64,000 nt of DNA, taken from NCBI GenBank assembly GCA_000827495.1, contig KN817535.1:361631-425630 (forward strand), given 5' to 3'. The DNA is from Hypholoma sublateritium FD-334 SS-4. Its lineage: Eukaryota; Basidiomycota; Agaricomycetes; Agaricales; Strophariaceae. Numbering within the stretch: position 1 is the stretch's first letter; every line of letters begins with the position of its first letter. Position numbers and translations under genes: made by a program. Under the pieces are notes generated by a model. It ran no database searches. It was not told the origin of the DNA and worked only from the letters and a program-made list of their open reading frames with translations. Of this stretch, positions 33,059 to 59,194 are shown piece by piece.

Positions 33059-33210
33059 GCCAAAGCAATCGGTGAAGAAGAGGATCAAGCGCCGGCTTGT
33101 GGTATTCACGTGACCGTGTTGGAAGGTGATGTTGGCACGACCAAACCACGAGCTGGTTGAGTCATTGACCTAACTGCTCGCCATCTTCAACGCTGACCGC
33201 CATCTCAAGG

Positions 33211-36837: not shown

Positions 36838-37198
36838 GAACAAGGTCTGCGGAGAAGTGGGTATCCTGAAAGGCCGGGGCTGCGAGAAGATTCAATTGTA
36901 GAGACGAATAAATGGATATACATAATGGACACGCACCACAACATCGAAGAATGCGCACATCTCAGCGCATTGACAACTCATCGGATGGGCGATGGGGGCG
37001 CAGAAGGTTTGCCATGGGCCATCGCACAACGGGATAGGCGCTGCGGCTCCGCATCGCAGAACCAGTAAAGAAATTCTGCCTGATCGATTGATCAGCCGCG
37101 GAAGTGGGTCATCCTGCACAGCGGTGAGAAGGGGGGGTCACTGATACGGAATGAGCGACTACTATCGCGGAAGGGCGGGAAGTACTTCTCCAGGCACA

Positions 37199-37296
37199 CC
37201 GCCGTGTACAACAGTGGCATTAGTCCACGAGAGGAGGCATCCAGCATGTGCCAGATGCACTCGCTCCTGCGCGGGCATTTTTTGCTGGGACGGCGG
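37199..37296 (+). repeat. inverted-repeat module, copy J
   Basis: Arms CCGCCGT and ACGGCGG pair. The middle (GGCATCCAGCATGTGCCAG) is close to copy I, as expected from the segmental duplication. Confidence 0.6.
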
Positions 37297-39416
37297 GGAG
37301 CGGGGGCAGCAGCGGCGGGGGCAGGATGAAGGAGCGGGGAAGATGAATCAGCAGTAGAGACGCACCAGATCCCCCAGCGACATGACTCGTACGCAAGAGC
37401 CCAGCAGTCGGTGAAGAAGAGTGGCGAGCGGCGAGTGACTCTGCAGCAGTGTCAGACCGAGAGTAGGGAATGATACACATACATTTGAGAGGTCCATCAC
37501 GTCGCCTGCGCGAGAAATTCAAAGGCAAGGATCGATACGGCGATCCTCGAAGGGGAATGATACGCGCACATTCCAGATGCGTATTGTGGCTCCTGGGCGA
37601 GAAATGCACGGGAAATGTGCCATAGAGCAGTCCTGCACGTAGCAGCCGCACATCATGCGTGGGGGGCAGGAGGGAAGTAGAGCGACGATGACAGCCAGCA
37701 ATCCCGGGCTACTACCACGCATGGACCACCACGTGCTCCGCATCGGCCCATCAGTAGGCGCTGGGTCAACGCTGGGTCGTTTACGCTTCGTTAAATTGGA
37801 AAAGCCCTTATTTGTTTGTAATTAAAACGGAAGGCCATTGACGTGAGCCGATTGTAGAAACATGTTGATTGACATGTCGCTGTGGCGTTATATAAGTAGA
37901 TGTATTTTCACTACGGCGAAATTCAACACAGGTGAAATGAATTCAATAACGCAAAACCAGTGTCAATGTCTTCGGAAGCACGCCCATATAAATTTCTCAC
38001 TAAAAAAAGAGGACTATCAGCCTATTCACGGATAACGGGCCTCGCGGAACTTGTCCAACCTCACCGGGTACTGATTTATTGATCAGAAAGGGGTACATTC
38101 TCTCCACACAAAAAGACTCGATGAGAAAGTCTCATTAGTAGAATTGCGAACACGCGCCGAGACAGACCCGCAGAAGCATAAAGGAGCTCATCCACAGCCT
38201 GTAGCTAGCTTTTCAATCTTTGGCATTGTGTACAGTCTAAGGGGCGCGAACGAGAGGGTGCACGGATGGAGTCATGATATATTCATATTCAAAGGAGAAA
38301 CGGGCGACGGTGCAAGAGCACGGCAGAAGCACATGAACGGTATATGCGCCGGCCCCGCTACCAACGGCGAGAACACTGCATGCTGATTATACTTTACGAA
38401 GTGAAGGGCGTGATCGCCGGGCGCCCCGTGTGCGCTGCACGCCAGCGAGCCTCGACCAAAATCCACTCCTCACTCGGTTAAGTGTACACCGCCACAAAGC
38501 GAGCAGTAACTTCGAGTGCATGCGGACACAGATACCTAGCCACATCCACCGCCTCTTTACTTCCTTGTACACAAAGTACCTTGAATGCGAAATATTAACA
38601 GCATACATGTCCGGGCGCAGGATACATATCGCCTCGGCGGAGAGTACGCGTGCAGGGAGGAGTGTGGAGCGGAAATAATCGGATAGTGCGCCCACGAGTT
38701 TCGTGCGAACGGGCGCCAGGGAGTGGGTGGAGTGATAACTGCAAAACGAGAAGGATTGGTCGTATAGCAGGACAGCGGGAAGTACGCCATATGTGCAATA
38801 CACATCCACAAGGGGCCGCGGAGCACACAGTGTCGTTTTTCCAGCTTAAATCACGCGAATATCCTTGCATGCCAGTGGGCGTCTATGTACATATACCTGT
38901 GCCATGTTTATAACCTTCTTGATTTCGGCGCTACAAAATAAGCGTGCGGCCATGTAGGAGCAGTCTTTCAGGTTTTGTTCAACACACTCGCAACATGATC
39001 TCCAGCGGTCTCAGTCTCCGTAGAAGGAGGCACACGCGGACATTATGGGGCATCGATGAAACGGAGAGAGGGCGTGACGGCACTTCACGCCGATAAATTG
39101 GACGAAGAAGGTATGGATAGGCTTAAAATCTTCCTGTGTAGAGGCGAGAGCGGAAACGTACTTATGCCGTCTGGCGACAGTGGGAGCGGTAAGAAGCCAG
39201 GAAGAACGATGTTTATACGGCTCAAATTCAACAAATGGCGCGATTCAGCCGCAACAGTCCAAATTCCAGAGCGATCAGTGAAGAAGAGGATCAAGCGCCG
39301 GCTTGTGGTATTCACGTGACCGTGTTGGAAGGTAAGGTTGGCACGACCAAACCACGAGCTGGTCGAGTCATTGACCGATCTACTCGCCATCTTCGACGCT
39401 GACCGCCATATCAAGG

Positions 39417-41045
39417 ATGGAAGTCTACACACCATCTGCTCCTATCTATGGCGTCAACAATGACGTCCTCCTGTTCATATTCACGCTCAATGCCGACATG
39501 TTCTTCGACAGCCAAGCTCTCCATACAGCGCGCGCTACATCGCAGGTCTGCCGACAATGGCGCGACTTGATGCTCGAGGCACCATTACTGTGGTCGAAGC
39601 TCATTGATATGGACATTTGCAATAACGACGGGAAGCTTGGCTGGATTACCGAGATTATTCGAAGAAGCGGGACGGTTGCCCCACTGTGGATCAAAGCAGA
39701 GGTAAATGGACGGTCTAGATGGCGCAGCGACACCGATAATATCAAGCAGTTCTTCATGGATCTCCTCAGCAATAATTGGTATCGGATTCAGAAGCTGGTT
39801 GTATTCCAAGACCGTTATTCTGGGCTCTGGTTCAATCTCACTTTCCCAATGCTGTGCTTTCCAGCGCCACAGCTGGAAAGGTTTACCATATTGCGTACCG
39901 ATGGCTACTCTTACAAAAGGAGTCCTGCAACCGAATCCATCTTTTCCACCCATGCACCTATGCTCCGCACCTTTCGTCTTCCGGGCTATGCTGTTCACCA
40001 GGAGCCATGGATTCGACATCTTCATACCATGTTACTTGACAGCGCATACGGTATCCGTGAAGCACTTACGGTACTCTCGGCCATGAATTGCCTTCAAGAA
40101 CTAGAAATCAACAACATCACCTACGGCGACATAGCGACATCTCTCCCTATTGCAGCTCTTCCACATCTCAAGTATCTCAAGTTCGATGGCGAGCCTACAC
40201 AAAACTATGCCATGCTTCTAGATCACATGACGATTCCCGTTGGTTGCTCATTGGATTTTCGGGTGTCTTATCCCCACGACCATCCGAGAAATGCGGAGAG
40301 AATGTTAAAAATTGAGCGGGTTTTCGAGGTATTTATCCGTCGCGCCGAGGGCTATTTGGAATCACACAAATTTGATACCTTTCACCTCGATTACAAGCCA
40401 CATGATCGCCTCACGTTGAAACTTGGAGGCAAGCCGCCGGTTGAATGTATGCTGAGCATATCAATCCCACTGCACCAAGATCTGGTTCCGATGTCCTTGA
40501 GGAGAATAAATTACGCAGATCTTGCGAACATCACAACATTCCAACTCCACACCGAGGGCGCGTTACCTCGATCTTTCCGGTTATTTTTCCAGGAGTTTCC
40601 ATCCGTGCACACAATCCATACTGACGATCTCTCGTTTCATCATCTGTCAACCTTCCAGCGTTCTATAAACGCTACGAGGAAGTCATTCGCCACATTTCCC
40701 CGACTCAAAGTCATCCGTGTTTCCATTTCAGATGACACACGTGTTTTCAATCTCGACAAGGAATTCTTTCTGTCAAGGTTCGAAAATGGCCATCCTATCG
40801 AAATGCTAGATATTTCAAATGGGCTGCCTTTCACATCTCCACCAGATTTGGACGCAATTGAAGCGGTCAAGGGTTTGAAGGTACGGTATAAACTTCCCCA
40901 GACGCAGGAGGTCTTTGAACACACGTGCGGCGGCAGGGATCCAGCGAACCAGTGTGGTGTCAGTGACTCCGGTGGACGGGAAGTGTGGGTAGAGTGTGGG
41001 AGTCTACAAGTGTACGAGCTATGGATAGAGGCTGGTAATCTGTAG
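39417..41045 (+). CDS. F-box protein with LRR-like C-terminal region (F-box gene 4), 542 aa
   Basis: The tandem sister of gene 3: the two are nearly identical over the first 100 residues and diverge more in the middle. The F-box is at about residues 10-68 (N-N-D-V-L-L-F-I-F-T-L-N-A-D-M-F, S-Q-V-C-R-Q-W-R). Leucine-rich segments and the V-H-T-I-H-T-D, G-L-K-V-R-Y-K and F-E-H-T-C-G-G signatures are all present, and no stop or frameshift is seen. The presumed role is an SCF ubiquitin-ligase adaptor. The sequence divergence of the central ligand region against a conserved F-box fits diversifying target recognition, but this is inference. The transposon inserted 38 bases after its stop codon, inside the likely 3' untranslated region, so transcript ending may be altered. 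Confidence 0.88.
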   Translation: MEVYTPSAPIYGVNNDVLLFIFTLNADMFFDSQALHTARATSQVCRQWRDLMLEAPLLWSKLIDMDICNNDGKLGWITEIIRRSGTVAPLWIKAEVNGRSRWRSDTDNIKQFFMDLLSNNWYRIQKLVVFQDRYSGLWFNLTFPMLCFPAPQLERFTILRTDGYSYKRSPATESIFSTHAPMLRTFRLPGYAVHQEPWIRHLHTMLLDSAYGIREALTVLSAMNCLQELEINNITYGDIATSLPIAALPHLKYLKFDGEPTQNYAMLLDHMTIPVGCSLDFRVSYPHDHPRNAERMLKIERVFEVFIRRAEGYLESHKFDTFHLDYKPHDRLTLKLGGKPPVECMLSISIPLHQDLVPMSLRRINYADLANITTFQLHTEGALPRSFRLFFQEFPSVHTIHTDDLSFHHLSTFQRSINATRKSFATFPRLKVIRVSISDDTRVFNLDKEFFLSRFENGHPIEMLDISNGLPFTSPPDLDAIEAVKGLKVRYKLPQTQEVFEHTCGGRDPANQCGVSDSGGREVWVECGSLQVYELWIEAGNL

Positions 41046-41080
41046 GATTTACGAAGGGGAGCGAACGGTTTAGTAGGTGC

Positions 41081-41083
41081 ATT
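41081..41083 (+). other. candidate target-site duplication (left)
   Basis: ATT immediately precedes the left terminal repeat and ATT immediately follows the right one (54333-54335). A 3-bp duplication is typical of CACTA elements. Confidence 0.6.
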
Positions 41084-41095
41084 CACTGCGTTTTG
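41084..41095 (+). repeat. left terminal inverted repeat
   Basis: CACTGCGTTTTG; identical to the reverse complement of 54321-54332. The identity stops after 12 bases. Confidence 0.85.
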
Positions 41096-41169
41096 ATCAA
41101 GCTGTCGAGGGGGTGGATTGTATGTAGATTGTGCTACTTTCGTGGGAGGATCCAGGGAGTGGATCCTCC

Positions 41170-41380
41170 GACAATCGACCCCATGGTTTCTGATATATTT
41201 AGCCTGTTTCTAAGCAATCCTGTACCTCTGGATTTACCAGCAATCCCAACAATCACTACGTGAAATCTGATGTTTCTGAAGGATCACATGCGTGACACTC
41301 CAACGATCCCAACAATCCAAATCCCAGATCTTTGGTCCATCCACCTCATGATTGCAGCGATTTTCGGACAATCGAAGGAC
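41170..41380 (+). repeat. left subterminal repeats
   Basis: GCAATCCCAACAATC (near 41240) and GATCCCAACAATCC (near 41300), with further CAATC words (41173, 41371). The reverse complement, TTGTTGGGATTGTTGGGA, is near 54258-54276. Such arrays bind the transposase or its helper in CACTA elements. Confidence 0.6.
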
Positions 41381-41834
41381 ATGATATATTGGATGGGCAG
41401 ACTATCATGGGGCATGATAGCCTTGTGATAGTACATGCAGGATATTTGAAATATTCGGCATACCGCCAATTGCGGTCCGCCTGCACTGGGGTCATTCTGG
41501 GCTGTACGGAATCGCACAAATCATTTTTATTACTGTAGATATATGGTATATACATTGTACACCAGTATTCTAGTAGTCAATGAGGGCCACGGAATAGGTT
41601 CACCGACTTGAAACCAAGAAATCGTGGACTCACAAACGGTAACAAAGCTCCTATACCCAGCATTGTATAACCATGCTGACCTCCCATCCCACTAATTGCA
41701 CGTCTTGCTTAGCCTCGTAATACACGTGTTTCAGGCCGCAATTGACTGATAGACACAGTACGGTACCTAGATAGAAGCAATGCATATATCAGTATGCCGC
41801 CATCCCATATCGCCCGCCCACTTTACCTTGGACA

Positions 41835-43809
41835 ATGGCCAGTCAACCCCCCATGCCTCCCACCCCTCCTCTCCTCTCCTCGCAGCCTGGTCATGCACCA
41901 CCAGCTCCTTACCAGCCACCGTCTGGGGGACATCAACCTGGAGCTGGTCATTATTCTTCCCATCCGAATCCTGGAAGCCATGCACACAGCTACCCAGCCT
42001 TTCCATCAGCATTAACAATGTCACAGGCTCCTGTAAGATCGCAAAACCCTTCAACTGGACCATCGACTGACACTGCTATTGTAGAGCGCACCTTTTCCCT
42101 TGCCTCCTAACCGAGATGGTACCACCTATATGAATCAGCCCACCGTTAGTCTTCCAGTCATCGCAATACAATTCAGCTTACCGACAGCAACAACAGAACA
42201 GGCCTCACATGTACCAATACAACCAACCTCTTGTCAGTTTTTCTACTATAGCAAAATTAATTGGCCACTAACCTATGCATTCAAGCCGTATCCGACACCT
42301 CCAGGGACCCAGGCCCCCATGCAAGACATGTCCGTCAATCAGCAGCATTTACAAGACAACATCGACCACCTGCAAGCTCGCCTCGAAGCCCAGGAAACGG
42401 CTAATCAAATTCAACAAGCTCGTCTCGAAGCACAGGAAGCCACATTCAGGATGCAACAAGAACGAATCGAGTCTGCTACCCTGGCTCAGCAAGAGCGATT
42501 GATCCAACAGGACAAGATGATCAAAGACTTACAGGTTAATCAGTATCAGAAGGCCGCGAAAGAGAGCAAAGGACCAACTAAACCTGCTGTTAGCGTAAGT
42601 TGAATGTTCAGACAAAATACTTTGTGGCTTACTGCTTTATAGGCATTCATTCATAAGATCATGTTGCGCCTTCTCGGTGTTACCCTCCTCAGAAGAGGGA
42701 AGTTGCCTTCGTTACCCCGTCCTCTTGATGCTGGCGAACCCTCTAGGAAAGCCCAAGATGGAACTGACCTCCACAATCCGGACTGGACAGTTGGTCTTCT
42801 TGCACCCACCAGCCGTGCTTTCATTGAGATGGCCGCTGCACTGGCACTGCAGCAGGAACAGGTATAACTTATTTTGATCAATTGAAATGATGACTCATTT
42901 TATTTGTAGGCGACACCCACCTGTTCACTTCCTGCCGAGGAACTCAACCTCAAGACATTTCAAGTGGCAGCTAAACAATACTTCACTCAGTTACGCAAAT
43001 CATACAAAGCTCAAAACTCACCAGGTACTCGTCGGAAGCAGGACATACATCGCATGCAAAGCCGAAGACGCAGCCGCAAGTCCCAGGTGAGATATTCTTT
43101 TCTGTTAATGTATACTGTAGTGACCACCCCACCCGTACAGAAAGCTGATATGTGCCGTGCTGCGATCCCAACCATTATCGAGAAACATGGCAAAGAGAAC
43201 GTTGTCGGCATTGAGAATATATTTGAAACCGACAATATGACATCGGAATACTCACAGGAAGAAGGCGGTCTATTGTCCGAGAGGTCTTGGGCAGCACACA
43301 AGGCTAAATTCGTCAAAGGCAATATACGAGCATTTGAACAACGTCGGAAAATGTGGAAAAGCAGTGATGTACATACCTCAATCTCTCCCGTTGTTCATCA
43401 ATTAATCTCTTCGTAGCATCGCCGTCTCCAAATGTACGCTTTCTCGATTGGACGGGAAATTGCACTCCCTGAAAATGGCAAAAACCGGGAACTTGCCCAA
43501 ATTCCTCGATTCCCCTGTGACAACCGCAATGTTAACGACGAACCACCCAAAGCAAGACGTCTGTATGGCAAACCAGTCTATGAAAAGTGCGTTTCCCAGT
43601 CATGGCTAGCGAGGACTCGCAGCCCAATGGTGCTGGAAGCAATGCCGCCTTCCTTTACTGTGTTCAACATTGCGATTCCGGACAACCTGTTCCGCTCTCG
43701 TGACCTTCAGTATCTTCAAGAACACAATGAGTTGGAGCAAGAGCTGAAAGCCCAGGCAGACCATGATGCAGAGTATGCAGCAGATGACGAAGGTGAACCC
43801 GAAGCTTAG
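41835..43809 (+). CDS. transposon-borne gene B: Pro/Gln-rich coiled-coil protein, 542 aa, unknown function
   Basis: My splice model has eight exons: 41835-42032, 42085-42144, 42188-42232, 42286-42594, 42643-42861, 42910-43086, 43141-43368 and 43417-43809. Every intron is 43-54 nt with GT-AG ends and the frame is kept throughout. The 43-nt and 53-nt introns at 42145 and 42233 are the least certain, because the frame is also open without removing them. The N-terminus is rich in P, Q, S, G and Y. Residues about 118-178 form a Q/E-rich coiled coil (repeats of A-R-L-E-A-Q-E). The middle is basic (R-R-R-S-R-K) and the C-terminus acidic. Proline-rich coiled-coil proteins of this kind often sit beside such transposases in Agaricomycetes, but none is characterised as far as I know. 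A DNA-binding or helper role like TnpA is conceivable. Confidence 0.65.
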
Positions 43810-43859
43810 AAAGTACAACCCATTGAATACTTTACAATTCATTAGATGCGAACAAAAGA

Positions 43860-46800
43860 CTATATATTACTAGAGAATGAAATGATTTCGGAACAAGTTC
43901 TGCATGATGATTTTGTGAGACACACCTGTTTACGATATACTGTTGCCCAGTAATTGGAGCCGTGGCTTTTAACCGTGGCGCGAATAGCATAACAATTGAT
44001 TTGGTCAAGAGAGATCAATGTTGGCCTTCCTACACCTACCTCTGTATATTGCTGGTGCTGCCACAGTCGGACACCTGCAGGTTTGCTGGAAGCAGTCAGT
44101 CAGGTATACGAAGACAACATATTAGTACTTACAATTCGCCCCACAGTCCCGGCGCCTCCAACACGGGAACTAGCCAACGAACTCGTGCCAGGCGTTGCAA
44201 ACCCCCAATTTCCGTTTGGTCCAAAGCGAATATATCCATGATTTCTGCCGCATGGAGTTCCGAGCCCAACAAGATACCAACGGTGGACTCGGCCAATGAT
44301 TTCATACGCCGAGATGCAGTATATCGATTAGAGTCAACAATTACATTGTCGTAGAATATGGTTCTTGGACTGAACATGACACTCTGAGGGGTTGGCGGAA
44401 GCGCAATATATGAATGAATGGTCCCAACAGCCAGCCGGGCTGTCCAGTATGCAAGGACCTCGAAATACATTGTCTGGTCCATGTCACCTATTTCAAAGTT
44501 CGGGCTTAAGCGGAAAGCTACACCTGCAGTGTCTTGGTGATGATCAAGCTCTTGCGTAAGGCTTTGAACAGTATCATGATCCTGGGCAGCCAGCATCTGG
44601 ACTGTACCGCGATCGTCAGCGGATGCTTGTCGCAATGCCCCAGCCACTAAACGCAGATTGATGTCATCCGATGTAGCTGCTGCCGCAAGCAGACGGCTCT
44701 CTTGAATAGTGCGATGATACTCGCGAAAGAATGATGTTTCCAGTTCGCCGTGGCCATGATTGTTGGACTTATAGGATTTGAGGACCTTGTTGAGGCGTTC
44801 AAACAGGAAGGTCCAGAATTCCTGGAATGGGCCATAGTCTCGAATAGAATCAGCGGTGTGAATGGCAAAGTGATGGTTTGGACGGATGACTGATGGGCCA
44901 TACAGCTCCACCAATTCCAGACAGTAAGCCCGCAGCAGCAAGTCAGCTTGTTGCAGCTCGGCCTCGGTAACACGACGTTTCCCAAGGATTTGAATGGCCA
45001 GACAGAGCTTCAGGAAATTTCCTGGATCTCCGGGAAGCAGATTGACTCCTGTGGCATCATCCTCTTCAATTTCCTCAGTGGTAAACTCCTCAGCTCTACG
45101 CCGTTTCCTAGGAATGGGTTCATCGAAGTCAGAGTCACCAACTCCAAGATCATCCTCAACATGTGGATCTGGGACAAAGTCATCACCGTCACCGTCACCG
45201 TCGCCCTCGCTATCAATACGTTCATCGATCTCCACAAGCTCAGCTACACGTTCAGCCATTTCAGTAGCTTTGGCGGTCCTCCTTCTTGCACGCTGTGGTC
45301 GCACCTGGCTACTGGTTGCTGCAGCGGGACCCTCACCGACTGGGGCCTCTGATGGAGCTGGCGGGACAACTGTGGGCGCTCGTCTCGCTCGTGTTTTGGC
45401 TTGCTTTCTATGAGCACAATCGGCCACTCGGCGTGCAATTGCATCATGAGCCGTGACATTTCCGGGCAGGAATTCTTCCCATATTTGAGGAATGACAAGT
45501 GGCGCAACAACTGTGGCAAAGATCAGCCATTGATCTGCAGTTAAGGATCCCCCAGCAGGTTCACCGATCATGGCTGGCAATCGTCCAAGCTTCTTGGGCA
45601 TTTCGATCTATTTGATCGTCAATAAGTATCTAGGGTTTGATGCAGTAAGGGACATAATTACCTCTGCTATTAGGATGTGGAGTCTGCGTAGCTCTTTGGT
45701 TTTGCGGAGGACATTGTTTTGGACCCAAATGTGATAGAAATGAGTTTTAACCAGTCCTATGGAAGTAATTAGCGATAAAGTTAAAATGTACAGGAGAAAG
45801 GTATTACCAAGGAACAAATTGTGCATGGGATCTATCACAATCATATGGACCATATTGAAGTAAGGAAGGCGCGAGAGCTCCGAGTACCGTGTAGCATACA
45901 CCTTGACAAATTTTTCGCGAGCAGATTTCGATGTACATTCAGCATATGCTGCCTGTTTCGCGCGATGCTCTGCGTCCGTGCGGGCCGGAAATCCTCCCGC
46001 TGCGAATGACTTGGGTGTCGCCTTTTCAGATTGCTCTACAGAGCATTTTGTACAAAATAATCGATGACTATGAGAGGCAAACCCCCCGAGTTTATGAGCC
46101 GCAGGCTTGTCACATACGAGAGCAACCAGAATTACTCGGACTAGGCGCCCATTTGGGTATTTGGGTGTTTTGATTACCACGCCGTTCTCCCATAAACGTA
46201 GCAATTCATTAACGACAACGCGCATATAATGATGTACTTGGTCAAAATCAGCTTCCTTGGGCCCTGGCATAATGCCACTTAGAAGTAAATTAGAAGTTCG
46301 ATAGCTATTTTCAATTAGTCAAGTGTTAATAACAACTTTGTGTAGGACATACCGTAGGTGAGGAGGGAGATTAACAACACTAAAAGACATAGGACACGAT
46401 GTATGCGAAGGCGCGATTTGACTTCTTAGGTACGAAAACCTGTGACAATGGGGTGTAATGAGCACTTTGCCTTAGAAACATGAATATAATTCATTTACCA
46501 ATCAATGCCGAGGGCCAGGCCTATACGCAGCTCGCCAGAATCGCATACTTCATCACTTGGATCGAAGAATAACGACCCATCTTTGCAGGGCAGTGTATGG
46601 CAAACGCGCCCATCAAAGATATTGGTATATTCACCGGGCGTCGTGGCACGTAGTTTGACGCGCGATTTTTCGATCTCGGTTTCGATACCAGGTACAGCTA
46701 ACATGGTCGCTAACTGCTCCTCAAGTAATTTGTACGGGAACTGCAGGCGAGGTTTCGGGATCTGTCGCTGTTCGCGTCCTTGACGTTGGTCAGCCGCTGT

Positions 46801-47813
46801 AGGCTTGGTGTGGAACAGAGGTTCATTACAGCAGAGTTCCGTGCTTTCAGTGGCAGGACTGAACACCTTCTGGCATTTGGGACACACTGGGCAAACACGG
46901 AAGCTCGGCTCAGCATTTAATGCATGCATGACACCAGGTAGTGTAGTTTTGAGGTCTAGTGGTCCCACTCCACATACATTTAGTATCACGGTGAACGTGA
47001 CCAGGATAGCTTTACACGCGCGAAAAGGTAAATGGCATTGTGAATGAAGCCAGAAGACAAGTAAATAAATATAATAAACCACGGGATTCGGATGAACTTG
47101 CGCCGGGGTCGGTATGGCATTCTCAACGGATGTGGATGGAGCGTAGTAGAATGGATCTTCAATGGGGGGAATTGCTGATTGCCCTCCCAAGCTGAGAGGA
47201 GGATCTACGCCCTCAAGCAATTCGTCATCCGGACCATGTTCATCCGGGCTGTCCTCCGCTTCATCGTCCAAGTCCGAGTCAGCACGGGAAATGAGCCCGA
47301 GATCGTGGACCGCTGGCACGTACGGCTCCGCACCACCAAAGACGCCGTCCAGCCATTGCGTCAACTGTTCATCCATATCATCGTACCACGTCGCGTAAGG
47401 GTTCGCTTCGGTCGGCTCTGCTGGGACTGACTGCGCAGCGCGAGGGGATTCCACTGGCAAAGGAGAGGCTCGGTCGGGTGGAGGTGATGCAGGAAGCGGA
47501 GGAGGAGAGGCCGCTTGGGGCATATCGAAAGGCAGAGGCGTATGACCAGCTTGAGAGGCTGGCGCTGCAGCCACGGACGGTACGTTGGGAGCCGTTTGTT
47601 GGCTGACGGCGGGCACAAATGAGTAGGTGGCATGAGGGCGGTTGTATGCCTGTTGTCGCCGATCTCGTTTCATGTGCTGTTCGCGCGTCCTGGCATTGGC
47701 TTGCGCGCCAATAGGCAGACAGGTGGTACAGGGGCAGGGTGCCTGTAGCAAATCGGTCAGAAAGATATGGCCGCGGACTAACAGACACGGGAACTTACCA
47801 GTGGAGGTGCCAT
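43860..47813 (-). CDS. Tnp2/Plavaka-like DDE transposase, seven exons, 1212 aa
   Basis: Exons on the minus strand: 47813-47799, 47742-46499, 46439-46353, 46304-45808, 45756-45662, 45607-44133 and 44085-43860. Introns are 47-59 nt, all GT-AG, and the frame closes exactly. The tiny first exon (M-A-P-P-L) is chosen because the second begins at a clean acceptor and lacks an ATG. Residues 6-35 hold a C-x-C-x2-C motif. A Cys-rich ribbon (C-P-V-C-P-K-C) is near 289. Core motifs are W-F-S-Y-L-R-S-Q, M-P-G-P-K-E, C-D-K-P-A-A-H-K (D514), D-P-M-H-N-L-F-L-G (D607) and F-E-R-L-N-K (E916), a plausible DDE triad by position. An acidic and basic insert (D-G-D-G, P-R-K-R-R-R) lies between 770 and 830. The enzyme should cut and move the element. 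The last exon is the least certain. Confidence 0.85.
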
Positions 47814-48761
47814 ACGAGCAAACCGGCGCCGGGATAGGAGACGCTAAACCGCGTCGCTACGGGATAACGAAACGAGGGGCGAGGGCCACGAAACCCACGC
47901 AGGGTAACACTGTCCGCGAGATGGTGGTCCGGAACTTAGGTAGGGCGCCCCAACGACACCCACCGCTGGATCGTAGGTTGGGTTCGAGCAGGGCAACGGA
48001 GCTGCGAGCCTGGGCAATCTACAGCGGTGACACCCACCGCTGTATCGTGCGCAAGGACGCCAGCAACGAGCCAGACGTAGGTTAGTTCTAACGCAAGCAC
48101 CCGCGTTAAAACTAGGCCTATGTCTATGCAGCGGCACCCACTGCATAAACGTTCGGCGAAGAAACGAAGAAAGCGTGCAAAAAAGTTCTAAGTGCGTTTC
48201 GAACTCCGACAGCAACTCCGCCGGAAGTTCAGTTCACGATGGTTTCCGCCATCAACGGTCTGTTTACCACTTCCACCTCTTCGTCCTCAGGCGGGTGCCG
48301 CCTGCAGGATGTGGGGGTCGTGTCGTACGTCGCAGACGGACAGGCTGCGTCGGGTGTTCGCCGCAGCTTGCTGGATACGCCGTGCTTTACCCCTCCGAGC
48401 CCGCTGCACGCCTTTCATCAGCCCCACTCACATATAAAGCGCCCTCGCCCCTCCGCACTCGTTCCGTGGGCTGTGTCGTGTGTCGTCCCAGCCCATAGAT
48501 CGATCGGCGCGCATCATGCTATCGTCCGTGGGCCGGACCTAGCTTGGCTGGGCACATGCCGCTCCTAGCGACTGCAAAACATATCCACCGGGTATCATTT
48601 CGCCGCATATAGATTATCAGGGGGCTCTACTTTCCTTAAGGTGCACCCCGCGGGAGTCTGAGGCTACGTTATCACCCTCCCCCCATCGCAGGAGCATCTC
48701 ACAACAGTAAGTACGCCCCACCTCGATTGCTCGACATTTTACCGATGTTTTTAAAGCAGAT
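47814..48761. promoter_or_regulatory. divergent intergenic region of the transposon with hairpin series
   Basis: It lies between the transposase start (minus strand) and the next + gene, so it should hold both promoters. It carries small hairpins with a shared CACCC-containing loop at 48021-48043, 48090-48107 and 48125-48147. Others are at 48346-48369 and 48467-48495. A CATATAAAG word is near 48431. No gene is supported; the ORFs are short and proline-rich. Confidence 0.5.
48021..48147. repeat. three hairpins with different arms and a common CACCC loop
   Basis: ACAGCGGTG/CACCGCTGT around ACACC (48021-48043), AACGC/GCGTT around AAGCACCC (about 48090-48107), and TATGCAG/CTGCATA around CGGCACCCA (about 48125-48147). 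A fourth, imperfect one is near 47948-47967. Arms differ in sequence but each pair is complementary. Confidence 0.55.
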
Positions 48762-49139
48762 ATGGACGTCAAATACATGGAGGCCCATCCGTTCCAGAGT
48801 GCACATCCCCCAGCCCCCGTCAAACGTGAGCCGCTCGCCGACACATTACCCGACAACACCACATTATCCATCGCCGAATCCGTGGCACAACCGGCGTTGG
48901 AGGCCTTGGAGAGTGACAGCGAGACGGAGGACGAGACCGACTCCAATGAATACATCGACAATATCATCCGTGACATCAACGCGTTGGTGGCACGCCTTCG
49001 CAGCTCCCGCGACTTCGAACGAGCTCGGCGAAGGAACAGGGAAAAGGATCTGGCACGGGCTAACCGGAGACTTGCGCTCCTGGACGGGCAGGTTCGCGAG
49101 GCGTTAGAAATGGCACAGAGGCCCAAACATAGAAGATAA
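48762..49139 (+). CDS. transposon-borne small acidic coiled-coil protein, 125 aa, unknown
   Basis: A single-exon frame, M-D-V-K-Y-M-E to P-K-H-R-R. Residues 45-65 are strongly acidic (S-D-S-E-T-E-D-E-T-D-S-N). Residues 66-120 are a charged, heptad-like helix (I-I-R-D-I-N-A-L-V-A-R-L, then R-A-R-R-R-N-R-E-K-D-L-A-R-A-N-R-R-L-A-L-L). This looks like a dimerisation segment of bZIP type but without a clear zipper register. The opposite strand is open over the same stretch (48617-49150), but that product is a Ser/Leu/Arg-rich mirror of the helix and is less plausible. It could be a helper or regulator of transposition. The hairpin series lies on both sides. The family is not recognised, and an upstream exon cannot be excluded. 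Confidence 0.45.
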   Translation: MDVKYMEAHPFQSAHPPAPVKREPLADTLPDNTTLSIAESVAQPALEALESDSETEDETDSNEYIDNIIRDINALVARLRSSRDFERARRRNREKDLARANRRLALLDGQVREALEMAQRPKHRR

Positions 49140-49334
49140 CATAGATTCATGAAGTTATTACACGTTGAAATGTCGTTTACTGGTTACAATTCCCGCCTGC
49201 GTATATCTGGGAGTGTGTGTGCGTGCGCGATATAAAATATGGGTGGTATGTGCGTGGGAGGAAGCTTAAAGTCGCGTCGATTTATTTGGCGCGACTGGAT
49301 CAAGGCCTGATCTCTTACCACCATCACTCCCGGC

Positions 49335-49513
49335 CAGCGTTGTGTGTCGACACTGTCCCAGCCTCGCCAGTTGCTCGAATTGCGTCGTGTGTCGACTCAA
49401 TTCAGCACCGTGCTCTTTTCGCGCTGATTGTGGAGTAGAGTCGTGTGTCGACTCTGCTCTCATAATCGCGACTCTTCGCGCCGTGCTGCAGAATTGATTC
49501 GTGTGTCGAATCA
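49335..49513. repeat. hairpin series with constant GTGTGTCG loop and varying arms
   Basis: GAATTG...CAATTC (49377-49403), AGAGTC...GACTCT (49437-49455) and TGATTCG...CGAATCA (49495-49513) each enclose GTGTGTCG-type loops, with centres 56-58 bases apart. A weaker member is at 49335-49355 and a distant one at 48467-48495 (TGGGCTG...CAGCCCA). The stems differ completely yet stay paired. Confidence 0.65.
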
Positions 49514-49542
49514 GCTCTCAGCTTGGAAATCGTACCTGAATA

Positions 49543-49706
49543 CGTACCTTACGCCGCTGTCCTAGCTTGACACAGGTATGTGTATGGAAGCGCTCTGAAA
49601 TGTTCGATGACTGACGTACTTCTCAGCTTGATAACACTATCTGGAACGTACCTTGCAGCGAAGTTCTAGGCCAACACAGGTGCGTGTATGAAAAGCTCTG
49701 AAAGGA
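49543..49706 (+). repeat. duplicated 5' leader of the large transposon gene
   Basis: CGTACCTT, then CTAG, then ACACAGGT and TGTATG-AAGC-CTCTGAAA occur at 49543-49602 and again at 49647-49706, a period of 104. The first copy gives ATG-GAA-GCG-CTC-TGA, a four-codon upstream frame. The second supplies the possible start at 49688. Confidence 0.6.
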
Positions 49707-49732
49707 TTGACAACTTAATCCTCACATCGCAG

Positions 49733-52700
49733 ATGCCGTACGACCAGGAGCCGCCTGTTGATTGGTCGCGGGGACGCGTATTCGTGCGCAATGGAACGAT
49801 ATTCTGTTCCCCGAATTCTCAGCGCACAGTCTTTATGCCGGATGAATCCTTAGCCCATACTAGCCCGTTTCATGCTGTCAACAACCCAAATCCTCCCGAC
49901 ATCCAATTATTTCAGCCAGTGTGGTGGGACTGGAGTCACGGCTGGCTAGCATTTGTACCACTCTCTCCGTCCTTCCTAGCATTACCGTTCAAAGTCCTGT
50001 CGTGGAAACCACGAATACTCGAACACCTCATCTTCAACGGCGAACGGCGCTTCCAGGTGCACTGCGAGGATTCCATGCCGTGGTTCCAATGCCAACAGCA
50101 ACTGAAGCGCATGGCCGATGAACTACGGATGCACTTTCACATCCCAGGAAATCTGCCGCCTTTACCTTTGTCATTCGGCCTGGATCTCATGCACAAGTCT
50201 CGGAATGATGCAGAGAAAGCTGTCGACAACTGCCGTCGATGGTTTGTGGTGTGGATGGGTTATCTGTCATATGCTATTGCTCAAACTTCGAGACCGGAAT
50301 ATCTCAAACCGGTCTCAGGCCCATTACCTTGTTGGTATGAGCACCTCGCAACGAAAAATTTTGGGGCTGCGTGGCTAGATGGGCTATCTAGATCAACCGT
50401 GGGCGCTTTCGATACCCGTACTACTCGTAGCGGAGTAATTCTAAACATCAAGACCAATGACCATCACCAACCCCCTGTTCAATGGTTCCTAGCGCACAAT
50501 ATTCCCTGCTGGTACGCATTGACCAAACAAACAGAGGAGTACATGAATGCAGATCCGTTTCTGCGGAGACTCATTCCACCATTTGCAATGGTGCAAGCTG
50601 TTCTCACAGACCTTTTGGCGGAATCACGCCTGCCACTAATATGGGTCATTATTCATGGTTATGGCGCCTGGGATTGGGCGGAGTACACAAACCAAGCACG
50701 CTCTCTGCTGGACATGCAGCGCAGCCCAACCATGATTGGCCAACTTCTGTCTGAGCAGCTGGGCACTGTCCACCCCAACACTAATTGGGAGCTGGTCGAC
50801 CCCACCAAGCGTGAAGAGACTCTCGTAAAACTCAAGGGCTTCCTCTCCGAACGGGAAAATAACATTCTCTCCCAAATCAAAGCTGACGAAGTCACTCTTG
50901 CGGAAGGAATGGTTGACAGGGAATTGTTTGATGGCGCATCCACTACCCTTTTCAAACATTGGACTGATTTTTTTGCGAAACGTGCGGCGCGAGAGGAGGA
51001 ACTCCTCAAAGCTGAATCCAGCAAAGACCGCCAGGCGCGTCTTGCGAGAGAGAGGAACCCTCCCACCAAGAAATGCCAAATGTATCTTTGGTCCAAGGTC
51101 CAAACTACAGGAGGGGAGTCGCTATATGCTCGCACATTACAGCCCAAGCGAGATCATTCCTCGCTGGTCACCACATATTGTCCTGCACAGACCAAGTTCT
51201 ATGCTCGTAAAGGTGATTGGGACTTTTTCGAAGAATTCGATTTGGAAGAAAGGCAGCCCTACGATGACTTACTGGACCCTGACTCAGAGCCGGATCTACC
51301 ACATAATAATCCTCCCCCAGAGCGAGAGGAGCGTGCACCTAGCCCACTTCGACCAAATGCTGACCTGTCTGTGCCTACCGCGGTTCCTGGCCGTTCGCCT
51401 TCCCCAATTCTTCAGCAGGATGAAGAACCAATCCCAGAAGCATTTTATTTAAAAGCTACTGTTGATGACTATTCCCCAGAATCTCCAACACCACGCCCGG
51501 AAGAAATGGACACAGTGGCAGATTCCGACACTCTCCCAGAAGAGATGATCATGTCGGAAACGCGCATCCTGGAGAGAGTATATTGGCAGTTTGGTTTTGT
51601 TCCGCCTCTCGGAAAGGAATACCCACCTGCACCCCTGCAATGGTCTGAAGTGCTCCACATGCTAGGGCATGTCGGTGAGGATCCGGTGAGCCCCTCAGAC
51701 AAGCTGGCCTTGCAGGCTTTCTTCTATGCTCTGGTTCGCAAGGAGGCCATTCCCGAGGACCTGGACGACCTCTCCACAAACAACCGCTCCTATCTGCTGG
51801 GCAGGATCGGTCTGCAAAGCTTTTCTGTGCTGGGGAAATATTTTGTATTCTGGGGCCTGCATTCTGCGACCACGGATTGGTTGTTGGGGGTGGATAGCGC
51901 AGCTGCTGTGCTATATATCCTACGTGTCTTAGCGTCAGCAGACCGGACATTCACATCGCTAACGTTGGGCCACCTTCTTGTGCAAAATGGTGTGCGATTC
52001 TACACTTTTCTGCAACTCCCACATGGTGTCCACTATGGCCTTGAAGCGCCTTTCAAACCGGCAGCATATCGTCGAAATGGATATAATTTCACGGCCCAGG
52101 ACTTCGAAGAGGCCCTCCTTGAGACACGAGCTCTGGTGCGCACTCATCAAGGGCGTGCGGCTTTGCTACGTGGTGGAATTATCGGGCGAATTGCACGTGA
52201 ATTCCTGGATACAGACGATGTCTTGGACGGCCCTTCTCTTGAGGCTACGTACTGTCGCCATGGACTCTGCGTGAATGCAGAGGACGGGGAACATGAGCTC
52301 TGGGATGATGATCTGACTGAGAATGAGATTGCGACCATTTGCGGTACATATCTCATGTATACTGGTAAGTTTCCTCTCGTTTCTGCCAAAAGCAAAGATG
52401 CTGACACTCCATGAATATTTCTAAGGGTCGGGTGAGCAGACGACCAAAGTGTCTTGGTTTCCGCCACCCCATACAGTCGAAACCAGTTCCTATGATTCTG
52501 TGGAATGGACACCTAAGGCGGAAGCTCTCTTCCAAAAGATCTTTGATGATGCAAAAAACGGAACTTTTCAGCCATTGAACGCAAAAAAGTGGCGTCATGT
52601 CTTTCGTGACCTCAAGAATCCTCGTGTTGCATTTGACAACAACCGCTCACGAGCTCATAATTTTTTGGTAGAACGTAAGGGGCCAATTGGGGGGGTGTAG
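49733..52700 (+). CDS. transposon-borne large protein of unknown function (about 968-983 aa)
   Basis: Two exons, up to 52364 and 52426-52700, with a 61-nt GTAAGT...AAG intron; the frame closes across it. The start could be 49688 (983 aa) or 49733 (968 aa, M-P-Y-D-Q-E). I prefer the second because 49688 lies in a duplicated leader whose sister copy is a dead-end upstream frame. Sections in order: W-S-R-G-R-V-F region; a conserved-looking W-F-V-V-W-M-G-Y-L-S-Y block near residue 195; a charged helix with R-N-P-P-T-K-K-C; acidic and proline-rich linkers; a hydrophobic-rich domain (W-G-L-H-S-A-T-T-D-W-L-L-G); and a C-terminal W-F-P-P-P-H-T plus W-T-P-K-A-E-A-L-F-Q-K module. I recall similar uncharacterised Agaricomycete proteins with the N-P-P-T and W-x-P modules, but no biochemical role. 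No membrane segment or enzyme motif is visible. Confidence 0.7.
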
Positions 52701-52795
52701 TTTTTTTGATAGCGTACTCATAACGGTCTCTTTTTAAAATATATCATTCACATTTTGGACTCATTTTGGACAGACTAAGGAATGTGAGGAGCTGT

Positions 52796-53894
52796 CTAAA
52801 CCCATCGAGACCCAGTCACCCGCTTCTGGCGGGTGATCTGGTTGTAGTTCACTCGGAGCAGGTGTGAACGTCGCTCATCAGGTTCTCGGTAGGACCCGTC
52901 TGTACTCTCGGTGTGACGAAGATATGCGGGCCTTGCTCTCCCAACAGGGTATGGCGGGTGAACGGCATCCAAAGTAACTCGCTGTGAAATATAAGTACGT
53001 GATTCATTGATGAACAGTATACAAAAACTCACAGAAACACATCTTGTCCAGTCATAGAGCTCGTTGCGCAGGGTGGGGTCACCTTCAAGGCGGGCGGCAG
53101 CAGACATGATCTCCACCATCAGAGTGCGAGGCTGCCAAAAGGGGCGAATGCGCCATGCAAGTTGAATCCAATCGGGGGCCTCAACAGCAACCCTTGCTCC
53201 CTGGAAAGTTGCCAAAGTGGCAGTGGGGCTTGTTGCGAAGATACGGTGAAAGCCAGCAGTAGCAGGCATTTCAATCTCGGCCTGGAGGAAGAACTTTGTT
53301 TCTTCGTCGATGTCCTGCCACTTGCGCCACCCAGGTATCAGGGTTTCGCCTTCGCGGGGTTGTCTCGGGGGCGGGAAGTTCCTGTTTTCCGGCTAATATG
53401 CATGTCAGTTGATCCATTGCTCCCTTGAAAGCTGACATGGGTACTCACTGGGTCTGTCTTGACTGACAGTGTGACTTTGACGTCGTCGTAGCCGCGCAGC
53501 AAGTAAGAGACGTCTGTGGCGCTACCGCGAACGTCCGCGGGAACTGGAATGCACTCAGTGCGCTCTTTGTTCGCAGTGATCCACTCGCCATGTGCTGTTA
53601 CCAAGTGGCTGGATGGCGATGTGACTAGCCTGAGCCCAGGCATAAGAACTGACGTGACCTGATTACGGTGAGTCCTTTTGCAACGTGAGTAAGTAGAGGT
53701 GCTGCTCACCCTTTCACTTCGGCGCGGGGCAGTCTCAGCTGACGCAGGAGTCGGCTCAGAGGTGGACCATGATGCAGGCAACACGCGCTTCTAGATAGAA
53801 TTTTTCAATGAAATGAAATAAACGATTAAGAAACACTTACACGTTTGGTGCCAGCCTGAGTAGTCTTGGAGGGGGAGGTATCAGACTGGGGCAT
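52796..53894 (-). CDS. transposon-borne gene D, 296 aa, unknown function
   Basis: Five exons on the minus strand: 53894-53841, 53790-53710, 53658-53449, 53392-53033 and 52981-52796. Introns are 50-56 nt with GT-AG ends. Two of them (51 nt each) could be retained without breaking the frame. The product starts M-P-Q-S-D-T-S-P-S-K, a Ser/Thr/Lys-rich low-complexity head. A compact region with W-I-T-A-N-K-E-R-T, Y-L-L-R-G-Y-D-D-V-K and W-Q-D-I-D-E-E-T-K-F-F-L follows. The end is basic (I-T-R-Q-K-R-V-T-G-S-R-W-V). Its 3' end is 96 bases from the end of the convergent large gene. It sits next to the right terminus, where accessory transposition genes are often found. The family is not recognised; a nucleic-acid-binding role is only a guess. 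Confidence 0.65.
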
Positions 53895-53899
53895 GGCCT

Positions 53900-54320
53900 T
53901 TTCGAAAAGATAATAAACGAACTCAGCGTGCTGGCTTAAATGTGGCACGTCACCTCAGCGAAACCCCTGTCATATTGCGTAGGTCGGACAGTATGTCCTT
54001 CTGCTCTATCATGCTGCTGATATTTGGGCCTTCCTGACCATCAGAAGTTGAAATTCGGTCTTTCTTAATAATCTCACCACGCGGATTGCTGGACTTTCAC
54101 TGCAACAATCATTGCCCTTAGATATTGCATGTATCATGGCCTGGATAATTGAGATAGTGTGACCGTCTCATGAATCCTAGGGTTGGAAATACGATAAATC
54201 CCGGGCCAATGAAAGTCCAACAATCCTACTACATGATTGTTGTGTTCGTACTCCGATCTTGTTGGGATTGTTGGGAAACCCGCACAATCCCGGCTATCCA
54301 TGCCCCTTGGCTATTACCGC
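53900..54320. repeat. right subterminal region of the transposon
   Basis: No gene. It contains the promoter of gene D and several CAACAATC/GATTGTTG words (near 54100, 54216, 54232 and 54258-54276), mirroring the left end. Confidence 0.55.
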
Positions 54321-54332
54321 CAAAACGCAGTG
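54321..54332 (-). repeat. right terminal inverted repeat
   Basis: CAAAACGCAGTG, the exact reverse complement of the left end; followed by ATT (54333-54335). Confidence 0.85.
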
Positions 54333-54980
54333 ATTGTTTAGTAGGTGCATTTAGTAAATGCGATAAAATCAGCCTAGCGTGCGATAAAAATAACTTCTTC
54401 GATTCGACGCCCTGTTTCTCGGAAACAGTAGGTTTAATTCACTGAATTCTAGTCGACAATTTTACGTGGGTTTATACTATGAAAAGAGCTGAATACGCTC
54501 AAAAGGGGTGGTGGACTGGCAAGCGCTAGAAAGGTAGAAAATTGCAATGACTGCGCATCCCAAATATGTGACGCGGAAAATATATAACATAGATTCCACG
54601 GACCGTATTGTCACGCACAAGCGCGGAGTGCAGATGGTGCGCATAGGATGAATGGAAAATGATGCAGAGATCGATGTACGCACCTCGTAATACCTGAAAC
54701 ATGAAGTATTCCAGAAATTGTTAGTGACAGGCGCGATGCGGTCGAATCTACTATGGCAGAAAAGGCGAGATGCGTAGATTAGAGCACGGCGGCGACGTAC
54801 CTTAGTCTCTATATACCTCAAAACCTTAAGGTCAGATCCTCCTGTGTGAAAGCGAGAGAAGACACGGGTGTCGTCGGACGCGGGGGATGTCGAACAGGCA
54901 GGAGGGCTGTGCACGGCGCTATATTAGGCTCGGGCAACATGCACCATGGATGCCAGACTCACGGACGGCGGGCAAGAAGG
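54333..54980 (+). repeat. displaced 3' flank of F-box gene 4
   Basis: 54336-54630 matches 34903-35250 (downstream of gene 3). 54680-54980 matches 36530-36830. About 1.2 kb present between these two parts after gene 3 is missing here. No gene is supported, though the minus strand keeps splice-like signals in both copies. Confidence 0.75.
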
Positions 54981-57082
54981 CCGGGGAAGCAAGATTCTGG
55001 ACGGGCTCGCGCAATCTGAGCAGGTGGAAGGACAAATTCATGAACATGAGACGCACCGCGATGGTAATGGGGCGCAAACGCAGGGACCGACGACGAGAAG
55101 GGGGGCGACAGTGCATCATCGAAGGACGGAAACGCGGTCAGGAATATGCGAAATAAATGCTGCTTTTGGACCGCCAAGATAGCGTCGCGCAGTCGTCCGT
55201 GGGGGAGGGCCATCCTGAGCATCGACGACATATAGGTGTCAGCGCAGCGTAAGCAAGGCGGCGACAGCGAGCGCAGCAACAGGCTGTAGTCAAACCTAAA
55301 CACACACCGTCGGCCCATTGAGTACAATGAAACCGCGCGCCCAAGTGTCCAGCGTGTTGCAGAACCACTCGCCACAGCGCGGACGTACTATACAGGGACG
55401 GCGGGGTGGGCGGAATGACGGCGTGGCGGGGTGGAGAACGCGGTGCAAGGTGTGGCGGCGCACCAAAGAGTCTATGGAGCGGAGTAAACGAGGGATACGC
55501 TCGAAGTTCCGTGCGACGGTGCCAGAGGATGAGAAGAGCTACTGCGATAGGTCGGCGATAGACAAGATCATGATCAGGGCGACCACGATGATAGTGCCGG
55601 AAACTCCCGGGCCACTACCACGCACAGGCCACCACGTCGGACCGGACTGCTAAAATTACATATCCTGCTCATTACAAAGTACTACCGTCGTCGGCTCCAT
55701 GAATTCGCCACGAAGGACAAGCACCTAGTATTGCAAAACAATGTTATAGCCACAGCAGTACGCACACATGTGCACATTGTTCTGCGGGACACGGGGCGCG
55801 GAGCGCGGAGGGGATTCGATGCAATTTGCGTGGTAGCTAAGTTAGAGGATTCTAGAGCATACCATTATTAGCGCGATGCGTACTTGCGTGCCGCACATAG
55901 ATAAAAATGATAGATAGCGGAGAGGCGAAGGGACGACTGCATCAGCCACGGCCCACCATTCGCGTTACACGTCAGCACGACCTGCTGCGAACGGTCCGGT
56001 ACGCCGGCGTGCTGCGGTGCGGATGAGCACAATGTACACAATAGCAGAAATGAAGACCTACCCACTCTTTCTCCAGGCGAGCGGCAGCAGACCGTAGACG
56101 GGATGCAGTGGATATATGTGGTAAATGTAACGTTTATTTCAGCGACTGTCGAAATCATAGATAAGGCAAACAGACAGCGGTACGCACGGCGTGGAACAAG
56201 GGAGGTGTAAGAACCAGACGACGACGCTTCTAAGAAGCATTGCATGTTTCCTGCATGAACGGAGTGAGCCGAAACAGAAAGAGGATTGACTTACCATGAT
56301 ATTCGCACGATCTCTTCTCGTTCCTCGACGACGATGACAATCAACATCGGCTGCAACATGTCAGTCAACAACGCGGCATCGGTGACTTACCAATGCAAGC
56401 ACAAGATCTGACCTCCTCGCCAGCGTCTTCGAGTACATTCAGCTCTCCCGCCGGCCTTAGTTGATGTTGTCCCGACCCCTCCCGCCAGTGTGAGCGCGCG
56501 TCGGTGCCCGCAGTCGCGCACCGCTCAGGTTCCCTTGCTATCTTTCTTGCTTTCCGCGCCCAATGCGCCCTCTTTCACTGTGACTCCCAGCTCCAACCCG
56601 GTCCCCAGGCTGCTCTCACATTGTCTCGGTCCTTTCCAACGGCTTCGCGTTTCGGAGGTTTGCCCTGACGCGACATCCCTTGCCATTTCTTCGAAGAACA
56701 TTCCGTCCTATAATCAGCAGGCCGGGCGATCATGGTCATGGTGATGCTCGAACCTAGCGTTAGAGATGTAGATAGAGAGTGATGTAGCCGCATGTGATGT
56801 GAAAACACTTTTGTACTCGATAGCTCCGCGTCCTGTTCACGTCAGCGACTTGTGCGGTGATGAACCAGGCCAAGCGCAATGAGATATTCGTTAAGCGCTC
56901 ATCAACATCCCGCGTTTCTGGCGCTGCGTAGATATTATATCCGGTAAATGCCGGTCACCACGCACAGACCCGCTGCTGCGCGTTGTAATAAGCGGGCTGC
57001 GGCCACGATTGCCTTCAAAACTGTTCGCACTCAAGTACTCATTAATCATTCCTTGTCTTTCATATCAAGCGCTTCGTCAACG
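54981..57082 (+). repeat. decayed repeat modules upstream of F-box gene 5
   Basis: Contains an inverted-repeat module (55307-55404), an anchor (55609-55640) and a second anchor at 56950-56985 close to the F-box gene. The minus strand at 55868-56245 has a hydrophobic frame with a GTAGGTC donor-like site. It may be a remnant of a membrane-protein gene, but no family can be named. No intact gene. Confidence 0.45.
55307..55404 (+). repeat. inverted-repeat module, decayed copy L
   Basis: The right arm GGACGGCGG is intact. The left arm has drifted to CCGTCGG. The middle keeps AGTGTCCAGCGTGTTGCAG and CACAGCGCGGACGT. Confidence 0.5.
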
Positions 57083-58661
57083 ATGCCAGCCAATTCATGG
57101 ACGCCAATCCACGTGCTCAACACCGACATCCTCTTGTCCATATTCACCATGAATGCCGACATCTTCTCCGACAGACATGCTATCCATACCACGCGCATTA
57201 CCTCACAAGTGTGCCGCCAATGGCGCGACTTGATGCTCGATACACCATCCCTATGGGCGAGACTCCTTGATATGGAGGCACTCTATTACATCTCGGCCCA
57301 TGAATGGTGGAACGAACTTATTCGCCGAAGCCGGGACGCACCGCTGTGGATCAGAGCATACTCGGCCCTACATGCGAACCGCACCGACAGATCCAAACAT
57401 CTGAGGCAGCTCTTCATCGATATTATCCACGGGAACTGGCACCGCATACAGAAACTATACATAGACGACCACTATTCCGGTTTCGGGCTCAGCCTCGCGA
57501 TGTTGTGCTTTCCAGCACCGCAGCTAGAAGATTCTGACGGCTTTCTGCCAAAGAAGACGGCGCACGCCGAAAACCACGATCAAAAAAGGGAAATAACACC
57601 TATATTTGCAGGACATGCCCCTATGCTTCGCACATCCCGGTTCAGAGGCCATACCATCGCGGATCAACACGCTCCTTGGCTGCGAAATCTTTGTTCCATT
57701 GAACTCGATTGCGAGTATGGTCTTCGCGATGCACTTGCAGTACTCTCAGCCGCATCTCGCCTTCAAGATTTAAAAGCGTATGGAATAGTCGAGGGATATG
57801 TATCCAGGCCGCTTCCCACCGTCTCTCTTCCACATCTGAAATATTTTCAATACCACGGTTTCCCTCAGCCTTGCGCCACACTTCTGGATCACACGATAAT
57901 TCCTCTGGGATGCTCATTGACCATCCAGATTGTCGGTTACAACATACGTGAACTTGCACAAGAGATTCAGAGAAAACTTATTTCGGTTTTCAACATATTT
58001 ACCGATTATGTCGAGCGCTACCTGCAAGCAAACATATTCAACGCCATTCACATCTGTTATTGGTCAAATTGTTCCATTTCTGTTGGAATGCAGAACTGTG
58101 TTTCCGGAAGAATGCCTGCTCAATTTGTGCCTTCCGCTGCACAACACTTCACATTCAAATCAGGCTGAAACGATTTTTAACAAGCTAGCTTCAATGGATC
58201 TCACAAGAATCACATCATTTGATCTCAGAGGGGACGTATACTCGCTCGAACCGTTTGTCAAGTTCTTTCTCCTCAACCTTCAATATCTGGACACCATTCA
58301 CATCGACAGCAGCACTCTGCAGAGTTTGATGTACCTCGAACCGGAAACCCTCACACACAACACTAAGAACGTCATTAAGTTTTTCCCCTTCCTGCGAGTC
58401 ATTGTCGGTTCCGTCAATAGTCATTCCTTTGCCCGACAACTTAATGTTTTCGTGAAATTCATCCTATCAAGGGCGCGAAACGGGTGTTCTATCACCACAT
58501 TAGACTTGACAAGAACCGCACCTCTCAAGACCACACCTAACTTGGACGCGCTTGCGAAGGTCAAGGGCCTGAAAGTGATATATAAACGTTTGCAGATGAA
58601 GGGGACATTTGAATATAGATGCGGCAGCGGCAGCCGGCAGAAACACATCTATACGACTTAG
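57083..58661 (+). pseudogene. F-box gene 5, broken by one frameshift
   Basis: It starts M-P-A-N-S-W and has an intact F-box at about residues 9-66 (N-T-D-I-L-L-S-I-F-T-M-N-A-D-I-F, S-Q-V-C-R-Q-W-R, L-W-A-R-L-L-D-M-E). The leucine-rich middle resembles genes 3 and 4. The first frame runs on to a stop at 58168, but homology leaves it between about 58065 and 58110. It resumes one base out of phase as E-E-C-L-L-N-L-C-L-P-L (gene 3: V-E-C-V-M-S-I-S-T-P-L) and continues to G-L-K-V-I-Y-K-R and the stop at 58661. No GT-AG intron explains the shift. Either the gene is newly dead, or one base was miscalled. The first half alone could still make an F-box protein without its C-terminal third. Confidence 0.8.
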
Positions 58662-59190: not shown

Positions 59191-59194
59191 CGGT

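Follow-up and report, generated by a model that had tools for sequence, protein, structure and literature searches.

According to PMC1636069, the CACTA/EnSpm transposons include fungal elements with the Transposase_21 (Tnp2) domain. Mushroom DNA transposons of several lineages, EnSpm and Plavaka among them, have a TET/JBP gene in common; the PE-type TETs are very distant, and Plavaka ends take the form TGT..ACA or CATCA..TGATG (PMC12730594). Here we describe an intact CACTA/EnSpm element of about 13 kb in Hypholoma sublateritium, which occupies positions 41084-54332 of an analysed stretch of 64,000 nucleotides (hereafter the window; contig C18:361631-425630). Labels such as C18, C44 and C37 denote contigs of the H. 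sublateritium FD-334 SS-4 genome, which comprises 46.1 Mb in 281 contigs. The element carries five genes, in the order A, T (the transposase), D, B and C.

This element shares with other CACTA/EnSpm transposons the CACTG ends, the 3-bp target duplication, the Tnp2 transposase and the subterminal repeats. However, in place of the usual tnpA/tnpD pair it has four further open frames beside the transposase (three if D is part of B), and none of A to D is recognisable as TNPA. As in the TET/JBP transposons, an extra gene is shared across DNA-transposon lineages of mushrooms; here, however, the shared gene is B, which bears the label PF28437 and is not a recognised TET/JBP, and the breakpoint can be seen in the DNA of two elements. 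With Plavaka the element has the B family in common and a weak transposase similarity (22.7 bits to PF18759, below the cut-off of 26.3), but it has CACTG..CAGTG ends and a Tnp2 transposase instead of Plavaka-type ends. No shared gene resembling B was met in the literature surveyed on fungal CACTA extra genes, Plavaka, accessory-gene exchange, this species and PF28437, a survey of partly accessible texts in which subscription journals are thinly covered; we claim no priority.

Structure and ends of the element

The left terminal inverted repeat, CACTGCGTTTTG, lies at 41084-41095 on the forward strand and the right one, its reverse complement, at 54321-54332 on the reverse strand; these are the only exact matches to this 12-mer in the window. 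They are flanked by an ATT target duplication (41081-41083 and 54333-54335). The outer 400 bp at the left (41084-41483) contain nine CAATC/GATTG words and those at the right (53933-54332) six, against a window average of 0.63 per 400 bp. A sequence-only reading of this DNA had proposed perfect 12-bp CACTG inverted ends, an ATT on both sides and shared subterminal words, all of which are borne out. The 12-mer in itself is not rare: it has eight exact places in the 46.1 Mb, versus about 5.5 expected for random sequence with equal base use, and the reversed CACTGCGTTTTG pattern has none. Hence, the case for the ends rests on the clustered subterminal words, the 3-bp repeat and the relatives of the element. 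The evidence beyond chance comprises the subterminal words, a related site that is unfilled (see below) and a second copy on C44 with matching ends. Three further exact places, on C21, C72 and C94, have no partner within two mismatches in the 7-kb stretches searched around them, and have 0, 0 and 1 subterminal words, respectively; they are probably chance occurrences.

A diverged second copy and selection on all five genes

The second complete copy (C44:50121-62926) has CACTGCGTTTTG at both ends, an AGT on both sides corresponding to the ATT of C18, seven and eight subterminal words at its two ends, and the whole set of five genes, ordered and oriented as in C18. Thus, the density of CAATC/GATTG words at the four ends is 6-9 per 400 bp, as opposed to 0.63 window-wide. 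The two copies are strongly diverged: in BLAST alignments the proteins are 48-71% (T), 36-47% (A) and 48-54% (B) identical by pieces, 45% identical for C, and 50% identical over 72 residues for D. Synonymous differences between them are at or close to saturation (pS 0.70-0.85), and the ratio of nonsynonymous to synonymous differences (pN/pS) is 0.28 for T, 0.39 for A, 0.39 for B, 0.42 for C and 0.52 for D (71 codons, interval 0.38-0.71). Saturated pS together with pN/pS of 0.28-0.52 indicates that all five genes have long been kept by selection. B is also under purifying selection in seven pairs picked for their closeness (one C32-C37, two Tnp2-linked and four Plavaka-linked), with dN/dS of 0.13-0.23.

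The five-gene layout is therefore old and not an accident of nesting, and the search for other copies with the same ends that the sequence-only reading had called for yields, in C44, a copy that keeps the order of all five genes. Its description of the element as complete and CACTA-type likewise agrees with the intact genes and with the conserved layout repeated in C44. Its view that the C18 copy is recent, in contrast, finds no support: probes of 707 bp and 453 bp from the C18 ends recovered C18 itself and no other copy in the genome, and C18 and C44 diverged anciently. A third end, at C59:244011, consists of CACTGCGTTTTG with four subterminal words, followed, in mirrored order, by a C-like gene (26%) and a B-like one (28%); its second end was not found in its stretch, and the contig stops soon beyond the genes. 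At C30:1-6000 a relative of T (45-58% identical in the better pieces) is transcribed divergently from a B-like gene (27%), of which the contig edge leaves only the start.

The five genes

Gene T (43860-47813, reverse strand) has seven exons encoding 1212 residues, as the sequence-only reading had it; its introns measure 47-59 bp with GT-AG at every junction, and the seventh exon is supported by conservation in C44. All splice models draw on the sequence, the C44 relative and the deposited models; the pN/pS, motif, Pfam and BLAST results for T were computed with a six-exon version of 1138 residues. This version matches the Tnp2 profile PF02992 with 44.7 bits (cut-off 28.6). The motifs D419, D514, CTKC (533-536), HFAIH (892-896) and E916 are retained in C44 and C30, and we assign the predicted catalytic residues from them at the motif level. 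Sub-cut-off Pfam matches of T to DUF4218 and DUF1258 were not used.

Gene A (41835-43809, forward) has eight exons and encodes a 542-residue protein with a coiled-coil-like middle that lies outside known families; the deposited counterpart, HYPSUDRAFT_200339 (533 aa), is 99% identical and starts six residues later. Gene D, or the 5' part of B, lies at 48762-49139 (forward, 125 aa). Gene B (49733-52700, forward) has two exons and encodes 968 residues, with the PF28437 label in the protein database. Gene C (52796-53894, reverse; five exons, 296 aa) is outside known families and identical along its entire length to the deposited HYPSUDRAFT_53571. The deposited model of B has 1085 residues and opens with most of D; because it fuses the two, D is possibly the 5' part of B. 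The earlier count of four further genes thus stands as four open frames of 542, 125, 968 and 296 residues, while the number of genes is three or four. None of A, B, C and D has a match above the Pfam cut-off; matches below it, namely SCAPER_N for D, bZIP_C for part of A and SBDS domain II for the C44 copy of A, were left unused.

Two separable modules

The accessory genes form two modules, one in which A accompanies this transposase and a separate one of D, B and C, rather than one fixed set. A is found in the genome on C18 and C44 only, and in the protein database it has two hits, both in this species, among the best 7998 candidates scored. D is found on C18, C44 and C32, and weakly on C37. 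C has 11 matches on six contigs, on each of which B lies no more than about 5.3 kb away.

The DNA of C44 and C37 aligns in ten BLAST pieces of 65.5-85.4% identity extending from C44:56062 to 61744, a region that runs from the 5' part of the transposase gene and takes in the promoter and D, B and C; B is 75.9% identical over 3086 columns and C 77.2% over 303. To the left of C44:56062 there is no alignment to C37 at E 1e-5, with C37 covered from its first base. On the right, C37 was compared up to 12400, and the alignment may extend further. The C37 transposase is a different Tnp2, only 22% identical to that of C44 in the single matching stretch. That the DNA similarity breaks off while the transposases are so distant shows directly that the D-B-C half has been joined to a different Tnp2 transposase at C37, and this exchange is visible between C44 and C37 as the similarity breakpoint itself. 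Hence, of the proposal in the sequence-only reading that the extra genes form a conserved set, the conservation survives, the genes being maintained at pN/pS of 0.28-0.52, but not the single set, D-B-C being separable.

An identical 26-base hairpin lies upstream of D at approximately C44:56696 and C37:7410, where the transposases differ. In C18, five hairpins with a TGTGT loop and differing stems are spread between T and B (48476, 49340, 49385, 49441 and 49499); four of them fold well relative to shuffles (z about -3.1 to -5.8) and the fifth less so (z -1.3). The loop is seen at C18 only, in one of six T-to-B intervals, and the exact hairpin core is absent from the 75 loci searched, a set outside which the C18 array itself lies; we do not reckon these hairpins to the mechanism.

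The B family and its transposase neighbours

B has 88 matches in the genome, which merge into 46 loci. We compared their neighbourhoods within 15 kb with 75 Tnp2 matches, 83 Plavaka loci (reduced by hand from 144) and, as a control, 40 KDZ loci (from 68); KDZ and Plavaka were reportedly named in a 2014 paper. The linkage count was made with 73 of the B matches, the remaining 15 falling within the same loci, and the expectations assume an even spread and ignore contig ends. A Tnp2 transposase was found near 9 of the 46 B loci (2.2 expected) and a Plavaka transposase near 16 (2.5 expected), as against two for KDZ (1.2 expected); 24 loci have Tnp2, Plavaka or both. Among the ten loci at least 50% identical in B, C18 included, Tnp2 is the neighbour at C18, C44 and C37 and Plavaka at six, five of which have B divergently transcribed; at C32 no transposase was seen. 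T has no match up to E 0.01 in the stretches examined on C39, C182 and C211, although their B genes have about 50% identity. A block of some 10 kb that contains both Plavaka and B is common to C39 and C182. An additional open frame lies to the left of the Plavaka transposase in the shared block (C39:210000-210600 and C182:7400-7800). An 11-bp end pair with GT on C39 (209716/220719) was not accepted, as C182 lacks a counterpart, and C211 has no convincing end pair.

In a tree of 20 of the 46 B loci and 14 of 30 database proteins, all picked by hand, the six Plavaka-linked genes group beside those of C44, C37 and C32, with C18 outside (split support 98); the Plavaka-linked B genes are nested among the Tnp2-linked ones. 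At least three partner switches are needed among the 18 labelled tips, as few as which were needed in 20 of 2000 label shuffles, and two among the 13 tips nearest their transposase. Repeated linkage and nesting in the tree support a putative exchange of B with Plavaka.

The PF28437 label is attached to 24 of the 30 database hits of B, whose named sources include Pholiota, Panaeolus, Crassisporium and Psilocybe. The Psilocybe cubensis relative carries the deposited name 'Enhancer of polycomb-like protein 1', which is probably wrong.

Weighing the explanations

We take the element to be a complete CACTA transposon with a modular set of genes under selection, at a probability of roughly 0.8, a figure that excludes the anti-silencing step discussed below. 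To judge from its anatomy and family, the Tnp2 transposase T would act on the 12-bp ends for excision and create the 3-bp duplication on reinsertion. A to D are maintained parts of the element rather than fortuitous cargo, given the order conserved in two diverged copies and the purifying selection. Recombination has joined the divergently transcribed D-B-C half to another Tnp2 transposase, as the breakpoint between C44 and C37 shows, and probably to Plavaka, and B may counter host silencing, or meet the host in some other way that unlike elements can use. Several observations weigh against this picture: the estimate of selection on D comes from 71 codons and its interval reaches 0.71; C32 has D, B and C with no transposase match seen there; at 22 of the 46 B loci, neither of the two transposases lies within 15 kb; C76 has both transposases nearby, the Tnp2 one 11 kb off; the Plavaka-linked gene on C62 is not divergent; and terminal repeats were not proven at any Plavaka-B locus examined. 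Given the 22 loci, B may in places occur by itself or next to transposases of kinds not found here.

That the insertion is nested or chimeric, with ends from different elements, would fit the several places that CACTGCGTTTTG by itself has in the genome; however, it is contradicted by C44, which repeats ends, order and orientation, and by the lack of further exact CACTGCGTTTTG in the window and the unfilled related site, and we regard it as extremely improbable. A to D might instead be passengers serving the host or themselves and merely riding along, as their lack of a recognised transposition domain would allow. Yet B lies beside unrelated transposases, C is near B on all six of its contigs and the gene order is retained in two diverged copies, which makes mere riding quite improbable. 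The proximity of B to Plavaka could also arise where repeats accumulate, through clustering there or through nested insertion, rather than from membership in Plavaka elements, given that the ends of the Plavaka-B loci are unproven and that distances of up to 15 kb were accepted. Against this, KDZ, which also dwells in repeats, has no such excess, five of the six close Plavaka-linked B genes are divergent, and C39 and C182 have their block with Plavaka and B in common; we consider such clustering unlikely.

As for function, the C-terminal domain of B has a confident structure prediction, and the predicted models found no matching solved structure. B accompanies unlike transposases and is therefore most likely a general helper (such as an anti-silencing or other host-interaction factor) and not a reader of the ends of this element. 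Anti-silencing specifically is a tentative suggestion drawn from the analogy to the TET/JBP transposons. The fuller proposition, that D-B-C is a helper module mobile among at least three lineages (two Tnp2 and Plavaka) with B as such a general factor, is possible but rather doubtful. B, with C and D, could alternatively be a transposition co-factor analogous to TNPA, acting in the transposase complex or binding near the ends for several related transposases. This would suit the persistence of B with transposases under purifying selection, the CMC kind of both partner lineages (PMC12730594) and a single very weak match of the B profile to a DNA-binding protein (E 0.41). However, Pfam recognises no DNA-binding domain in B, and its partner transposases are barely similar, which makes a reader of particular ends less likely; hence, we hold this co-factor role, too, to be rather unlikely. 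Plant TNPA binds subterminal words, and A, by its linkage to this transposase, might be a better candidate than B for such binding, if a weak one.

Insertion site and tandem array

The element is surrounded by a tandem array of similar units (window 30001-41083 and 54333-64000). The left flank (39254-41083), a unit that includes a long open frame (39375-41045), aligns to 33048-34919 at 82.7% over 1878 columns. The right flank aligns to 34904-35239, next after the left-flank match, at 75% over 336 columns, with the insert absent. In this related unit without the insert, the 16-mer GTTTAGTAGGTGCATT lies at 34904-34919 on the forward strand; genome-wide it occurs at only two other places, 41068-41083 before the element and 54336-54351 past the right-hand ATT. 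Its presence on both flanks exceeds what a 3-bp duplication accounts for; on the simplest reading, the original target would have contained two tandem 16-mers, with insertion duplicating ATT.

Implications

B, with 46 loci in one genome, is a protein whose role is directly testable. If it indeed passes between transposon lineages, it would be a second family to do so after TET/JBP (PMC12730594), here with a recombination breakpoint in view, and this would suggest that the exchange of helper genes is a common route of DNA-transposon evolution.

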